Assembly: GCA_963170155.1 (NCBI GenBank)
Contig: CAUJGP010000021.1
Location: 124,001-188,000 of the forward strand
Reading direction: 5' to 3'
Length of the DNA stretch: 64,000 bases
Source: Bdellovibrionota bacterium
Lineage (GTDB): Bacteria > Bdellovibrionota > Bdellovibrionia > Bdellovibrionales > Bdellovibrionaceae
The stretch's first letter is position 1. The number at the start of each line of letters is the position of its first letter. The notes beneath the pieces were generated by a model that worked only from the letters and a program-made list of their open reading frames with translations, did not search any database and was not told where the DNA came from. Below are positions 920-57,840 of this stretch, one piece after another. The position numbers and the translations under genes were made by a program.

Positions 920-3148
920 TTAGGGTTGGCAGAAAGAATAGGGTGGAGGATCTTCAGGATTTAGTGAGCGGTGTTTTGTGCATAGGACTTCACGGAGATC
1001 TTGATTTTCTTTTTTTAAGATTTGAATTTCTTTTTCTAATTGATTCACTGTTTCTGAAAGACCTATTAATTTATTGTATATTACACGAAGGGCTTCAATG
1101 ATGGGAGCTACGAAGTTCTGATAAAGCACTGACTTACGTCCTTTTTTATCAGTCTTTACAAGTTCAGGAAAAACCTTTTCGACATTTTGAGCAATGACTC
1201 CAATTTGCTTTTCTTTTCCGAGGGCTGAATCTTTCCAATAAAAAGAGACCCCTTGGATTTCTAAAAGTTTTTTCACAAAAAATTCAGGATCACTTTCGTG
1301 AGGTTCATTCAAAGGATAAATGTGTTTTTTCAGAGTGACATCAGAAGCGGCAGAAATAGTGCCTGTTGCTGTAATATTACCGTTGGATGAGATATTGGTT
1401 GTTATTAAATTACCCGTGGATTGAATTTGCCCATTGACGGTGAGGTTACCAGTGAGAGTGATTTCCCCTGAAGGAGGAGCCTCAATAATGCCATTCACTT
1501 TTAAATTTCCATCCAGCTCAAGGCGGCCTGTGCCACAATGATTGCCAGCAGAGGAGTTTACTAAAGCTCCCCCAATACCACTGTAGTCTTGAGCTCCAGA
1601 GCATTGCCATGGTGTCGTTCCCTGTGTGGCTCGCAGTCTTAGATTTCCTTGGATTAAAGTATTGCCATCCAATCGAAAGAAGCCGGGTTTGACGCTTCCT
1701 GAGGCATCAGCATCTTGGAAGTGCCAGTTCCAAGCCATTCCTTCTGGCATCATCACTCCGGCTCGGCTAGTATTATTACAGCCGACACAACTACCATCAG
1801 CCCAACCAATGGCATAGACTTTTGCTGGATCGACTCCATATCGATGAGCATCTTGAATGATGGTTTCCCAGTTTCCAAAACCAATAAAACTTGTTTTGGC
1901 TTTTTCGGTGCCATAGGAGGGCTGAAGTCCCACAACGTCTCCATAGTTTGTATAGATATTTCCTGAAGCAGCGAGGCTGGCACGAGTGAAGGTTGTAGGG
2001 GATTGAACTCCAAAAAATTTAAAAATAGTATCTGCAGGCATGACCACACCTATGTTACTAGATCCAGAATCCCATCCTATCATGTACATTTGATCGCCTG
2101 GGAACCCTAAGCCTCCGGGATTGGTTCCAAAAGTATTGACCATGCGGCTGTACTCTCCGAACCCAATCACGATATCTCCATCGGCTCCTTGAAGGAGGTT
2201 ATTGCCTGTATTGGGTGGGATAGAAGAAGGGCAACTCGCCCAACTTTGTATGCATCGAGAACCAGGCATAAGAGTATTACAAGCCGAATCCGTCGTACAA
2301 AGAGGGTCTCCAGACGTGTTAGCGTGACTGCATCTTCGACGCTGACAGGCCGGTGCGTCCCTTGTAATATAAAGGTTCCCATCTTTTGCAAGCATGTCAC
2401 CGCCTTCGGTGCGAAAGCGAATATTGTAAAGCTCGTCTTTAACATTTCCTAATGCAATATTGTAGTCAGGTGAATATGCTGTTTTTAAGTTAACGCCTAC
2501 GGGTGGAGTCGTTGCAGGAAAACTATCATCGATATTAAAAAGATTAGTGACAGAGATTCCTCCACTGCCGAGACGACAGTAATCGACAGTTCCAGGATTG
2601 GGAGGGCCAGGCGTCCCTGTGGGAACACGGCGGACAGCGATGGGTACGTTAAAAGGTTTTGAATCACCTCCATACTGTTGTCCTTGAGGACCGATGCGCT
2701 CGACTCGAATTGTCAATGTCGCAATACCATTGAGGCTGTCAGGAGATGGAAGTGTGGTATAGTTGCTGGCTCCTCCAAAAGTAATTTGAGTGATACGAAT
2801 GCTGTTTGTGCCGTAAGTGATTGTAGAGTCAGTGCTTAAAAAATTTTTTAAATTGCCACCAGCGTCTACGAATTTGAGATTGGTCAGATTATTTTCTTTA
2901 GTGGGATCAAGTCCTCGAAAGTTATTGGTACAAACTGCTTGTGTTTGCAGAAGATGCCGAGCTTCGTCCAATAGTTGTTGTCTTTCTGAGTTTTGGTTCA
3001 CCGCTTTGGATGATTTAAATAAATTTCCCATGAGCATAGAGAGACCGTAGCCAACAACAATCATGAGGGCGGCGACTAAGGAAATTTCAACTAATGAAAA
3101 ACCTTTATTGTTTTTTAAATAGTGGATTCTCTCTGAAATGAATTTCAC
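920..3148 (-). CDS. Giant type IV prepilin-like protein with C-terminal S74 intramolecular chaperone domain
   Basis: From the GTG at 3148 the product is 742 residues. Residues 12-25 form a class III prepilin signal: a short basic leader ending in Gly16, cleavage before Phe17, Glu at mature position +5, then a hydrophobic helix to about residue 40. The middle 600 residues are Gly/Thr/Asn-rich with cysteine pairs and look like beta structure of a surface or tail-fibre-like protein. The last ~110 residues carry the S74 motif 'SDVTLKKHI' (a self-cleavage site with Ser at the cut in tailspike chaperones), followed by 'IGVIAQNVEKVFPELV' and a terminal coiled coil. An upstream in-frame ATG at 3271 would bury the prepilin leader inside the protein, so I reject it. 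A G7 run precedes the GTG by 12 bases. It is not obviously in an operon with other pilus genes. Confidence 0.85.
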   Translation of the reverse strand: MKFISERIHYLKNNKGFSLVEISLVAALMIVVGYGLSMLMGNLFKSSKAVNQNSERQQLLDEARHLLQTQAVCTNNFRGLDPTKENNLTNLKFVDAGGNLKNFLSTDSTITYGTNSIRITQITFGGASNYTTLPSPDSLNGIATLTIRVERIGPQGQQYGGDSKPFNVPIAVRRVPTGTPGPPNPGTVDYCRLGSGGISVTNLFNIDDSFPATTPPVGVNLKTAYSPDYNIALGNVKDELYNIRFRTEGGDMLAKDGNLYITRDAPACQRRRCSHANTSGDPLCTTDSACNTLMPGSRCIQSWASCPSSIPPNTGNNLLQGADGDIVIGFGEYSRMVNTFGTNPGGLGFPGDQMYMIGWDSGSSNIGVVMPADTIFKFFGVQSPTTFTRASLAASGNIYTNYGDVVGLQPSYGTEKAKTSFIGFGNWETIIQDAHRYGVDPAKVYAIGWADGSCVGCNNTSRAGVMMPEGMAWNWHFQDADASGSVKPGFFRLDGNTLIQGNLRLRATQGTTPWQCSGAQDYSGIGGALVNSSAGNHCGTGRLELDGNLKVNGIIEAPPSGEITLTGNLTVNGQIQSTGNLITTNISSNGNITATGTISAASDVTLKKHIYPLNEPHESDPEFFVKKLLEIQGVSFYWKDSALGKEKQIGVIAQNVEKVFPELVKTDKKGRKSVLYQNFVAPIIEALRVIYNKLIGLSETVNQLEKEIQILKKENQDLREVLCTKHRSLNPEDPPPYSFCQP

Positions 3149-3160
3149 AACTAAAAATAT

Positions 3161-3167
3161 CCCCCCC
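3161..3167 (-). promoter_or_regulatory. Poly-G(7) ribosome-binding site
   Basis: Seven C on the plus strand read as A-G7 on the minus strand, 12 bases upstream of the GTG start of the prepilin-S74 gene. The spacing is longer than at the other two poly-G sites, so either translation is weak or the run length varies. Confidence 0.45.
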
Positions 3168-6444: not shown

Positions 6445-6510
6445 ATGAAAACAAAACAGACCAAATCACTGGCCTTTCCGTCAAAAAATTTTTTATCACT
6501 TTATCGATAA
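6445..6510 (+). CDS. Possible 21-residue peptide with a strong ribosome-binding site
   Basis: AAAGGAG sits about 8 bases before an ATG that opens a 21-codon frame ending in TAA, overlapping the 3' end of the convergent S8 protease gene by ten bases. The peptide is basic and polar with no hydrophobic segment. The upstream 200 bases are AT-rich and have the look of an untranslated leader. It could be a true micro-gene, a leader peptide, or the stub of a gene whose body was lost when the region rearranged. No family is recognisable. Confidence 0.3.
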   Translation: MKTKQTKSLAFPSKNFLSLYR

Positions 6511-8216
6511 GCTGCTTTTGTGATTTTAAAGCCATAACTTTCAACAGAGGCATCGGCTTTAAATTCAACTTTCACAGTGTCACCTTTGATAATACGCGAA
6601 TAAAAACGCCCTCGTGATCCTGATATGTTGTGAGAGATGCGCCCTTCTTTATTGATCAATTTCACTTCATCCATTTGTTTTTCTGTGTCGAAGTGTTCGA
6701 AATAAAGTGAAATTTCTTTTGCTCCAGGTACATGAACTTCAAATGTTTTTTTAGTATAAGAGGCATAAGGGTGATCGGTTTCTATGGAAACAGGGATAGA
6801 TTCCCAATTCGCAGGATCATTAGGATCAGGGGGATGCTGTTCATTGATCAATGCATAATAAGCATTCACCATTCCATAACTCGTGGATTTTTCTCGCAAG
6901 GAACCAAGGGGTCGTGATGTCCTTAAAAGACGCTCCTTGAGTTCAAGATTGGTAAGCTGGGGTTCATGTGACCACACAAGAGCGGCAACTCCAGAGACAA
7001 AAGGCGCTGCCATTGATGTTCCAGAAACTGATTTGGTTTCTCCATTCTTCCAAAATCCATAAATACTAACACCAGGAGCCCCAATATCGACTGTTTTAGC
7101 TCCCCAATTAGAAAAGCCGCTCATTTCTCCATTTTGGTTGATAGCGGCAACAGAAATCACATTGGGAATATCGATTGATGCTGGATATATAGGCTTTTCA
7201 TCATTGTTAGTTCCGTCATTTCCTGCAGCAGCAATAAAAATAGCACCCGCTTTATGGGCTCTCTCAATAGCCTCTTCGAGAGCTAATGAAGATTCATAGG
7301 AACCCCAGGAGTTACTCAAAACTTTTGCGCCTTTACTGACAGCGTAATCTATCGCTTTGACAGCGGCTTCCAGAGTTCCTTCTCCCGTGGATCTTAAAAA
7401 TTTAAGACCCATGATTTTAACTTTCCAGTTCACACCAGTAATGCCATGACCATTATCACCCACGCCTCCAATCGTTCCTGCGCAGTGAGTACCGTGTCCA
7501 CTATTATCGTGAGGATTATTAATGGAGCCATCACCGATGGGATTGATCCCATAAATATCATCAACATAGCCGTTTTGATCGTCATCCACGCCGGGCTTGC
7601 CATTGAGCTCCAATTCATTCGTCCAAATATTCGCTCTTAAATCAGGTCGATTGTAGTCAATTCCGGAGTCAATGATGGCAACGATCATTTCTTCTGAACC
7701 GGTTGTAATATCCCAAGCTCTTTCAATATCGATATCCACAGAGTTTTGACTTACAATACTGTTTTTAAGTCCCCACTGACGAGCAAAGTCCGGATCATTG
7801 GGTAACTTTAAAGAGCGATAAATCAGGTTGGGTTCTGCATACTCAACAAGGGGATTATTTGAGAGTTCTTGAATCGCTGATTTCTGAGTTTCAACCACCG
7901 CTCGTTGGACAACCAGGAGATTTGCAGAAGGAAGTGCAGACTTCACAAAGGCTCCTAATACAGAACCAAGTTGAACATTGAGTTTTTGAGGGTTGAAGTC
8001 TAAGGTACTGAACATAGGCTTTAATTTAATGACGTACTCTCCAGGCACGGCATCTCGTTCTTGATCAAAAGCTTGAAGCGTGGACGCGCTGAGAGCGATT
8101 AAAATAGCGACAAATAAATGTGACAAAAGTTTTATAGATCTAAATGCAAATCTGACTAAGTTGAAAGAAATCATAGTTTGTTGTTGCACTCGGTGAGATA
8201 GGTTGAGTTGCGGCAT
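6501..8216 (-). CDS. Exported subtilisin-like serine protease (S8)
   Basis: A 571-residue S8 protease. The ATG at 8216 is chosen because AAGGAGGGG lies 4-5 bases upstream. A hydrophobic export segment lies around residues 28-49 after a long basic lead. An I9-type pro-domain follows (about 55-135). The catalytic domain has Asp183 ('IIDSGIDY'), His241 ('GHGTHC'), oxyanion Asn333 ('AAAGNDG') and Ser401 ('SGTSMAAP'), all intact, plus an Asp-rich 'DDDQNGYVDD' loop likely to bind calcium. The last ~90 residues form a separate beta-rich domain resembling pre-peptidase C-terminal or CUB-like modules. It is divergent to the S41 protease at 8418. A second S8 protease lies at 56335. Confidence 0.93.
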   Translation of the reverse strand: MPQLNLSHRVQQQTMISFNLVRFAFRSIKLLSHLFVAILIALSASTLQAFDQERDAVPGEYVIKLKPMFSTLDFNPQKLNVQLGSVLGAFVKSALPSANLLVVQRAVVETQKSAIQELSNNPLVEYAEPNLIYRSLKLPNDPDFARQWGLKNSIVSQNSVDIDIERAWDITTGSEEMIVAIIDSGIDYNRPDLRANIWTNELELNGKPGVDDDQNGYVDDIYGINPIGDGSINNPHDNSGHGTHCAGTIGGVGDNGHGITGVNWKVKIMGLKFLRSTGEGTLEAAVKAIDYAVSKGAKVLSNSWGSYESSLALEEAIERAHKAGAIFIAAAGNDGTNNDEKPIYPASIDIPNVISVAAINQNGEMSGFSNWGAKTVDIGAPGVSIYGFWKNGETKSVSGTSMAAPFVSGVAALVWSHEPQLTNLELKERLLRTSRPLGSLREKSTSYGMVNAYYALINEQHPPDPNDPANWESIPVSIETDHPYASYTKKTFEVHVPGAKEISLYFEHFDTEKQMDEVKLINKEGRISHNISGSRGRFYSRIIKGDTVKVEFKADASVESYGFKITKAAYR

Positions 8217-8363
8217 TATTCCCCTCCTTATATTGGCGTTATACTTAAGATAGGCTCTCAAAATTCTCTATAAGCCGCTTCCCCTCTTGATTTGGCGGGA
8301 GAGAATTTTGGCGCATGCTAACAATTAAAAAAAAAATAACAATCAATTTTGTAAGGACTTGCT

Positions 8364-8405: not shown

Positions 8406-8412
8406 GGGGGGG
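8406..8412 (+). promoter_or_regulatory. Poly-G(7) ribosome-binding site
   Basis: Seven G end five bases before the ATG at 8418 in place of AGGAGG. It is the third poly-G start site of an exported protein in the first 9 kb. Confidence 0.6.
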
Positions 8413-56334: not shown

Positions 56335-57840
56335 ATGTTTAAACAATTATTATTATTCACAGCGGCTTTGTTCGCGTCAGCGGAATTGCTCGCGGTTGAG
56401 TATCTTGTAAAGTACAAATCTTCAGCGATTGGTTACTCTCAAGTTCTTTCAATGCATGGTTTAGCCGTTGAAGATACGAATGTGGATGCTTCATTGATGA
56501 AGGTCAATATTCCAAAAACTAATGAAGCAGAAGTTTTGGCTCAACTATACCGACAAGAGGGAGTCGAGTACGTTGTACCAAATGCAAGGGTTTACGCTTT
56601 TGCAGCGCCACTTGATCCATACGCTCTTCAAGAGCAGTGGCATATCGCGAAGGTTCGAGCAGAAGAAGCTTGGGCTAAGGCTGGTAACAAAGGTTCTAAA
56701 AAAGTAACCGTTGCTGTCATCGATACAGGAGTTGATTACACTCATCCATCACTCAAAGATAATATGGTCGGTGGTTACGATTTTAACTCTAATGATGATG
56801 ATCCGATGGATGTCACAAGCTCTCAAAATCCTGGTCATGGAACTCACTGTGCTGGAATCATTGGAGCCACAGGTGTTGTTGAAGGCGGAACAATTGGAAT
56901 TAGCCCAGAAGTTTCTATTATGCCTATTCGTTTCTTGAATGAAAGAGGCGGCGGCGATTTTAACAATGGGATTAAGGCGATCGACTATGCTATTTCTAAG
57001 AAGGTAGATGTTATCTCAGCAAGTTGGGGTGCAGCTATTTCAAGAACTCAAGCTCAGCCACTTATTGAAGCTATTGAAAGAGCGACAAAAGCGGGAATTA
57101 TTTTTGTTGCAGCGGCAGGAAATGATGGAAAGAACAATGATGGTTATGAAGTCTATCCTGCTAACGCCAATGTAGAAGGATTTATTTCTGTTGCAGCGTC
57201 TGGTCCTCAAGATGAAAAACCACAATGGTCAAACTATGGACCTAAAATGGTTCATTTGGCTTCTCCTGGTTTGAATATTGTAAGTACTTTGCCAAAAGGT
57301 AAACATGATAAGATGTCTGGAACGTCGATGGCAGCTCCTCTTGTTTCTGGCTTAGTGGCTTTCTTAAAAGCTCAGGATCCAAGTTTGACTGGTTCTCAAG
57401 TCATTTCAATTCTTCAAACTACAGGTGCTGATGTAAGCATTCAAACTCAGTGTAACTGTCGTATTGATGCCTTTGCTGCTACAGAAATGGTTGTAGACAA
57501 AAAAATGTATTTGGTTCCTACAGCGGGAACTTTCAAGAGTAATGATACTGTAAAACTTCAAAGCTACAATGCTGTTGGAGATGTTCAGTACCAAAGCTCG
57601 AATGAAGCTGTTTTAAAAATTGCTACCGATGGCACAATGACAGCTGGTCAAAATGGTGATGCTGTGATTACAGCCGTTGACTCTAATGGAAGTAAAGTTT
57701 CTTCTCGAACTTTCCACGTTGGTGCTACAACGACAAATCCAGAACCAACGCCGCCAGGAGACTGTCCTTTCGAAGACCCTCTTACTTGTATGGCCGTTTG
57801 TATTATCATGCCTGATGCACCATGGTGTTCTATGCAATAA
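56335..57840 (+). CDS. Exported subtilisin-like serine protease (S8) with C-terminal Ig-like domain
   Basis: A 501-residue protease with signal peptide (1-20), I9-like pro-domain (about 21-90), and catalytic residues Asp130 ('VIDTGVDYTHPSL'), His168 ('GHGTHCAG'), Asn263 ('AAAGNDG') and Ser331 ('SGTSMAAP'). Residues 390-470 form a bacterial Ig-like (BIG2-type) domain, and the last 30 residues are Pro/Cys-rich with four cysteines. AAGGAGGGG precedes the ATG. It is shorter than, and clearly paralogous to, the S8 protease at 6501-8216, whose C-terminal domain is different. A strong terminator follows. Confidence 0.93.
   Translation: MFKQLLLFTAALFASAELLAVEYLVKYKSSAIGYSQVLSMHGLAVEDTNVDASLMKVNIPKTNEAEVLAQLYRQEGVEYVVPNARVYAFAAPLDPYALQEQWHIAKVRAEEAWAKAGNKGSKKVTVAVIDTGVDYTHPSLKDNMVGGYDFNSNDDDPMDVTSSQNPGHGTHCAGIIGATGVVEGGTIGISPEVSIMPIRFLNERGGGDFNNGIKAIDYAISKKVDVISASWGAAISRTQAQPLIEAIERATKAGIIFVAAAGNDGKNNDGYEVYPANANVEGFISVAASGPQDEKPQWSNYGPKMVHLASPGLNIVSTLPKGKHDKMSGTSMAAPLVSGLVAFLKAQDPSLTGSQVISILQTTGADVSIQTQCNCRIDAFAATEMVVDKKMYLVPTAGTFKSNDTVKLQSYNAVGDVQYQSSNEAVLKIATDGTMTAGQNGDAVITAVDSNGSKVSSRTFHVGATTTNPEPTPPGDCPFEDPLTCMAVCIIMPDAPWCSMQ

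Follow-up and report, generated by a model that had tools for sequence, protein, structure and literature searches.

Gene and domain organization

A single gene with an N-terminal prepilin leader and a C-terminal S74 domain is located near the start of the window (the whole stretch of 64,000 nucleotides analysed here). It lies on the minus strand, from a GTG start codon at position 3148 to a TAA stop at position 920 (920..3148), in a frame of 742 codons without internal stops. The encoded protein of 742 residues consists of the prepilin leader, a pilin-like domain, a variable middle region and an S74 chaperone/protease domain. The coordinates and the length agree with the original prediction, to which the strand can now be added. 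An alternative start at an upstream ATG (3271) is unlikely, as the leader would then reach about 57 residues. A tract of seven G residues (G7; 3161..3167, minus strand), at a spacing of 12 nt from the GTG codon, is possibly the ribosome-binding site of this gene, as judged from its position. In the first 8.5 kb of the window, G7-G8 tracts are found 5-12 bases ahead of three start codons (3161-3167 and 783-790 on the minus strand, 8406-8412 on the plus strand), including those of the present gene and of a small secreted neighbour (411-776). These tracts may function in ribosome binding or as switches prone to slippage; about two such runs are expected per strand, and the association with start codons may be due to chance.

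A frameshift or assembly artefact was dropped as an explanation for the domain order, given the single clean frame and the occurrence of the same order in other proteins (see below). Phage families match the C-terminal part of the protein, but a phage gene was likewise dropped, as the neighbouring genes that were retrieved are annotated with bacterial metabolic and envelope functions and the N-terminal domain is pilin-like. Elsewhere, the 64-kb window encodes two subtilase-family (S8) peptidases (6501-8261, minus strand; 56335-57840, plus strand), one of which has a CUB domain.

The N-terminal pilin-like domain

Residues 1-16 form the prepilin leader (MKFISERIHYLKNNKG; 3101..3148, minus strand), which is directly followed by FSLVE. 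Cleavage by PilD is predicted after Gly16, which makes Phe17 the first and Glu21 the fifth residue of the mature chain, and a hydrophobic stretch follows (residues 22-40). The hallmarks of a class III leader, i.e. a basic leader ending in Gly, a hydrophobic stretch and Glu5, are all present, and the complete signal (Gly16-Phe17, Glu+5) is found as the original prediction had it. The Pfam N_methyl match to the leader remains below the cut-off (13 bits, E 0.074), and the N-terminus was therefore tested separately with an independent profile, built from 51 related pilin domains with the 742-residue protein excluded. This leave-one-out profile matched the protein with 101 bits (E 1e-29), compared to 7.4 bits for the best of 2000 shuffled sequences, on the basis of which a chance prepilin motif was dropped. 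When the first 60 residues alone were shuffled, the score still reached up to 62 bits, so the homology extends beyond the leader and includes the globular part. By profile comparison, the N-terminal ~190 residues are thus assigned to a pilin-like family, and represent more than a leader.

The pilin-like domain (residues 17-193; 2570..3100, minus strand) comprises a long helix (residues 17-66), several beta strands, and the cysteines Cys73 and Cys191. The family profile matches solved pilins, including geopilin (1.3e-6) and TcpA (5.7e-6). An AlphaFold2 model of residues 1-200, built with 52 sequences, has a mean pLDDT of 85.8 and shows the single helix and the strands in the order of pilins. 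A Foldseek search of this model against the PDB gave no significant match, and the model is consistent with a pilin fold without confirming it. The leader Gly is conserved in at least 90% of the 52 pilin domains, and Cys73 in all 52; some sister proteins have no Glu5. With S74 downstream of the pilin domain, the protein carries the extra module by which modular type IV pilins are recognised.

The C-terminal S74 domain

The C-terminal part (residues 602-742; 923..1345, minus strand) was identified as an S74 intramolecular chaperone/protease domain by Pfam, AlphaFold2 and Foldseek. Pfam family S74 (PF13884) matches residues 602-665 with an E-value of 7.2e-11 and 42.6 bits, against a cut-off of 22. 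The domain begins with an SDxxxK motif, here SDVTLK, of which the catalytic Ser602 (codon 1343..1345, minus strand) and the dyad residue Lys607 (codon 1328..1330, minus strand) are invariant in 42 out of 42 aligned S74 domains. In the full-length AlphaFold2 model the pilin part is again confident, and most of residues 601-730 have a pLDDT of 85-97, with one block of 10 residues at 70. The model includes a long C-terminal helix (residues 676-729; 962..1123, minus strand), which is likely to be the coiled coil of the predicted S74 trimer. Both the motif and the helix are located at the C-terminal end, where they had been expected. A structure prediction without an S74 fold had been put forward as a refuting outcome; this check was passed, as Foldseek matched the predicted C-terminal fold to the S74/ICA domain of MyRF (7dc3, probability 1.00), and more weakly to the K1F endosialidase chaperone.

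Since self-cleavage is expected just before Ser602, as in Bd3182 (see below) and phage S74 proteins, the released fragment would comprise residues 602-742, i.e. 141 residues rather than the approximately 110 suggested initially. The S74 domains of MyRF, phage endosialidase and tail fibres (7dc3, 3gw6, 6f45) have the same fold and Ser/Lys motif, but no pilin attached. Giant S74 proteins, with frames of more than 3300 residues, were also observed in the family to which the window belongs (L101:6127-16113; G044:C1:1538436; G026:C2:176652).

The variable middle region

Residues 194-540 (1529..2569, minus strand) constitute a variable region. It contains an insert rich in Cys and two blocks (IGFG...Y.IGW..GS...GV.MP) that are weakly similar to each other; this similarity is marginal (score 60, compared to 58 for the best of 2000 shuffles). 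No relatives of residues 166-560 were found among the ORFs that were compared, and AlphaFold2 fails across about residues 156-600, where the pLDDT is mostly below 50. Between this region and the S74 domain are beta-rich repeats (GNLTVNGQIQSTGNLITT...GNITATG; residues 541-601; 1346..1528, minus strand), which resemble the stalk preceding S74 in the mosaic adhesive trimeric (MAT) proteins of Bdellovibrio. They show weak matches to Bactofilin/FapA-type families and, in relatives, align with the C-terminal regions of MAT/S74 proteins. As residues 156-600 lack a usable model and, for the most part, relatives, it is only putative that the 742-residue protein forms a continuous trimeric fibre. Pilins are packed helically, and three copies would therefore need flexible linkers; a Pro/Gly-rich stretch at residues 176-190 could be such a linker.

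A family of prepilin-S74 proteins

A search for homologues with the same two-domain order identified at least 24 other proteins (counted as distinct aligned proteins, the 742-residue protein excluded), nearly all from Bdellovibrionota and several of them encoded in tandem. The fusion of a prepilin leader to S74 is hence real and conserved, but its description as unusual was too strong, considering this number of members and the fact that the architecture was catalogued in 2021 (PMC8179133). Members also occur in other families of Bdellovibrionales, in Bdellovibrio sp. qaytius (L178) and in one record labelled Proteobacteria (L222). Three genes in tandem are present in an Oligoflexia bacterium record (L220) and in a Pseudobdellovibrionaceae bacterium record (L240), and two in a Bacteriovoracaceae bacterium record (L229). 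In the genome of a relative (G012), a secreted protein of 1060 residues with what appears to be a Hint/intein-like self-processing domain at its C-terminus (L195:8199-11381) is encoded directly downstream of two tandem prepilin-S74 genes.

In the family of the window, 54 of the 66 genomes contain matches to the 742-residue protein, nearly all to its S74 part. Most of these S74 matches lie in proteins that have a Sec-type N-terminus and an N-domain of the YQGR type; we take these to be MAT proteins like those of Bdellovibrio.

In the 16 full-length members, the pilin part has three invariant residues, Gly16, Cys73 and Cys191, and the S74 domain has four, Ser602, Lys607, Gly650 and Ala653. The presence of Gly16 in all 16 aligned proteins is partly a selection effect, since members were partly picked on this motif, but neither the two cysteines nor the Ser/Lys dyad of S74 are affected by this. 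The tandem paralogues of the Bacteriovoracaceae record have near-identical pilin parts and differing repeats, which by eye resemble YadA-type trimeric heads. Pilin relatives with other tips also exist, including ones with the GNVGIGT...LDVNG repeats that are found between pilin and S74 in most relatives. The pilin is thus kept while the tips differ among relatives, as is expected of swappable adhesins.

Relationship to MAT fibres

The MAT fibres of Bdellovibrio bacteriovorus have a signal peptide followed by a conserved N-domain of ~130 residues (PMC10769870), whereas the 742-residue protein begins with a pilin. At the other end, proteins of the S74 group of MATs share with it an SDxxxK-containing S74 C-terminus that is preceded by beta-rich repeats. 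One of these, Bd3182, trimerises and then cuts itself at the S74 serine, S782 (PMC10769870). The S74 terminus of the 742-residue protein is that of the MAT S74 subgroup, but MAT membership as such was rejected, as the N-terminus is a pilin instead of a signal peptide with MAT N-domain. No MAT N-domain is detectable in the genome of the window, while the same search was positive in 58 out of 66 genomes of the family. The genome encodes one S74 protein only.

When a profile of the 16 prepilin-S74 proteins was compared to the PDB, its front part matched pilins, its middle part MAT fibres (Bd2133, 8ond, 6e-8; other MAT structures weaker) and its back part S74 proteins, namely MyRF and tail fibres of phages (1e-18). 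The GNVGIGT repeats of relatives match solved MAT tips.

Family tree analysis of S74 domains places pilin-anchored and other S74 domains intermixed, and the S74 domain of the 742-residue protein nearest to MAT-type S74 domains of relatives, with 50% identity at best. A single clade of pilin-type S74 domains, i.e. one origin of the prepilin-S74 combination, is rejected by an AU test (p 0.008), performed with ~109 columns and a quick tree after removal of four long-branch rows; the starred branches of the tree alone do not force this rejection. Together, the mixing in the tree and the AU test suggest, with moderate confidence, that S74 tips have moved between pilin and Sec anchors.

Comparison with known pilin systems

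Raynaud et al. (2021) list the combination of prepilin and S74 (IPR012902-IPR030392, i.e. N_methyl and S74) among the 15 commonest modular pilins, and the S74 domain is tentatively read there as a peptidase (PMC8179133). The order of domains described there is that of the 742-residue protein, i.e. a class III leader and pilin module followed by S74; the listing is based on InterPro only, without experiment (PMC8179133). A literature search of open papers found no experimental study of a prepilin-S74 protein. The two-domain order is therefore already known, and the 742-residue protein adds a member to an uncharacterised architecture. What is new is the connection to MATs, the distribution across Bdellovibrionota, the finding that the catalytic residues are retained, and the support for an exchange of tips.

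In the type IVb minor pilins TcpB and CofB, the pilin domain is followed by a flexible linker, and the C-terminal domains homotrimerise at the pilus tip (PMC9565799). The 742-residue protein would resemble these as a large minor pilin with a pilin domain and a putative linker, its Pro/Gly-rich stretch being in about the same place. However, TcpB and CofB belong to type IVb systems and have no S74, and their C-terminal domains are unrelated to that of the 742-residue protein by any of the searches performed. The Kil "Tips" of Myxococcus xanthus provide a case in which the pilus of a predator displays minor pilins with variable domains that are used against prey, but these are complexes of several minor pilins on a Tad pilus, and no S74 is noted in the passages considered (PMC12075869).

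Proposed role as a pilus-borne trimeric fibre

We propose that the 742-residue protein is probably a modular minor type IV pilin, carrying a trimeric, phage-like fibre that is trimmed by S74. Trimerisation followed by self-cleavage would, by homology, be the best model, because the related MAT protein Bd3182 behaves in this way and homotrimeric minor pilins (TcpB, CofB) exist at pilus tips. The chain would first be inserted in the inner membrane, where PilD would remove the 16 leader residues between Gly16 and Phe17, in agreement with the motif observed. In the periplasm, S74, with its fold and catalytic residues in place, would bring three chains together and fold the preceding beta-rich fibre. 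By analogy with Bd3182 and the phage relatives, S74 would then detach itself by cleavage just in front of Ser602; 141 residues would be released, and the end of the fibre would become exposed. The mature chain (residues 17-601) would enter a type IVa pilus, most likely at the tip, and the variable middle region would bind the target, as suggested by the size of the protein and by the examples of TcpB/CofB and modular pilins. The product could be likened to a Bdellovibrio MAT fibre with a pilin in place of the Sec signal and MAT N-domain.

The genome of the window is that of a Bdellovibrionaceae-type relative, and the group in which the fusion recurs consists of bacteria that are often predatory. 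Conserved pilins ending in MAT-like, S74-trimmed fibres are a testable candidate for trimeric adhesins on a retractable filament, and this candidate bears on how predatory Bdellovibrionota connect type IV pili to recognition. It also suggests an interpretation of S74 in modular pilins as a chaperone for folding, in preference to a peptidase function. A conceivable but speculative extension, which we regard as doubtful, is that type IV pili of Bdellovibrionota are tipped by pilin-anchored homotrimers, with S74 self-cleavage as a quality gate by which only correct trimers are trimmed, pass the secretin and start a pilus, and with S74 tips being traded with Sec-exported MAT fibres. If true, this would amount to a second, retractable set for recognition of prey or surfaces, parallel to the MATs.

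Pilus machinery and alternative explanations

The genome of the window encodes several pilus/secretion ATPases, prepilins, two A24-type (PilD-type) prepilin peptidases, PilM, PilQ and a Myxococcus-PilA-like pilin; the PilQ and PilA matches are below NCBIfam cut-offs, and the PilQ stretch is incomplete. Inspection of the sequence indicated that a T2SS-like pseudopilin operon and a Tad-like locus are also present, so that the type IVa system as carrier is only a proposal. Among the ORFs scanned in the window, no pilus genes were found; the prepilin-S74 gene stands alone, which counts against a role as pilus subunit. It is not uncommon for a minor pilin gene to be an orphan.

The location outside any pilus operon and the leader scoring below the Pfam N_methyl cut-off would also fit a protein in which the prepilin segment acts as an inner-membrane or export anchor only, with the S74-processed trimer in the periplasm or envelope and never in a pilus. 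A precedent for S74 in a membrane protein is MyRF (PMC8326128, PMC3742443), which is the best structural match. We consider this unlikely, given the conservation of the leader Gly in the related domains, the homology spanning the whole pilin domain, and the presence of PilD-type peptidases and type IVa pilus genes in the genome.

Still less probable is that the protein acts as a pseudopilin of the T2SS-like or Tad-like system, with an S74 fibre at the pseudopilus tip that would handle or gate exported substrates, without adhesion. Both loci are encoded in the genome, and the minor pilins of the Myxococcus Tad (Kil) system form interchangeable tips for prey contact (PMC12075869), but the gene is not linked to either locus, and the variable middle region and swappable tips across relatives fit adhesion better. 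Finally, a monomeric minor pilin that forms no trimer, and on which S74 is only a remnant or acts as a simple peptidase, is very improbable: the middle region is not recognised as a beta-helix in the AlphaFold2 model and peptidase activity was suggested by Raynaud et al. (PMC8179133), but the S74 domains of K1F (3gw6), MyRF (7dc3) and Bd3182 are trimeric intramolecular chaperones cutting in cis, and the protein has retained the Ser and the Lys as well as the helix at the C-terminus.

Other prepilin-type proteins were observed in the same genome. On contig C4, next to the T2SS-like pseudopilin genes, lies the gene for a very large modular pilin of 1036 residues (L156:8739-11849). A further three modular pilins (L119:379-1635, L115:754-1647, L111:781-1620), 279-418 residues in length, have Cys-rich tips, and the first of these contains three similar FxGxxxYxQxDxGCGxS repeats.
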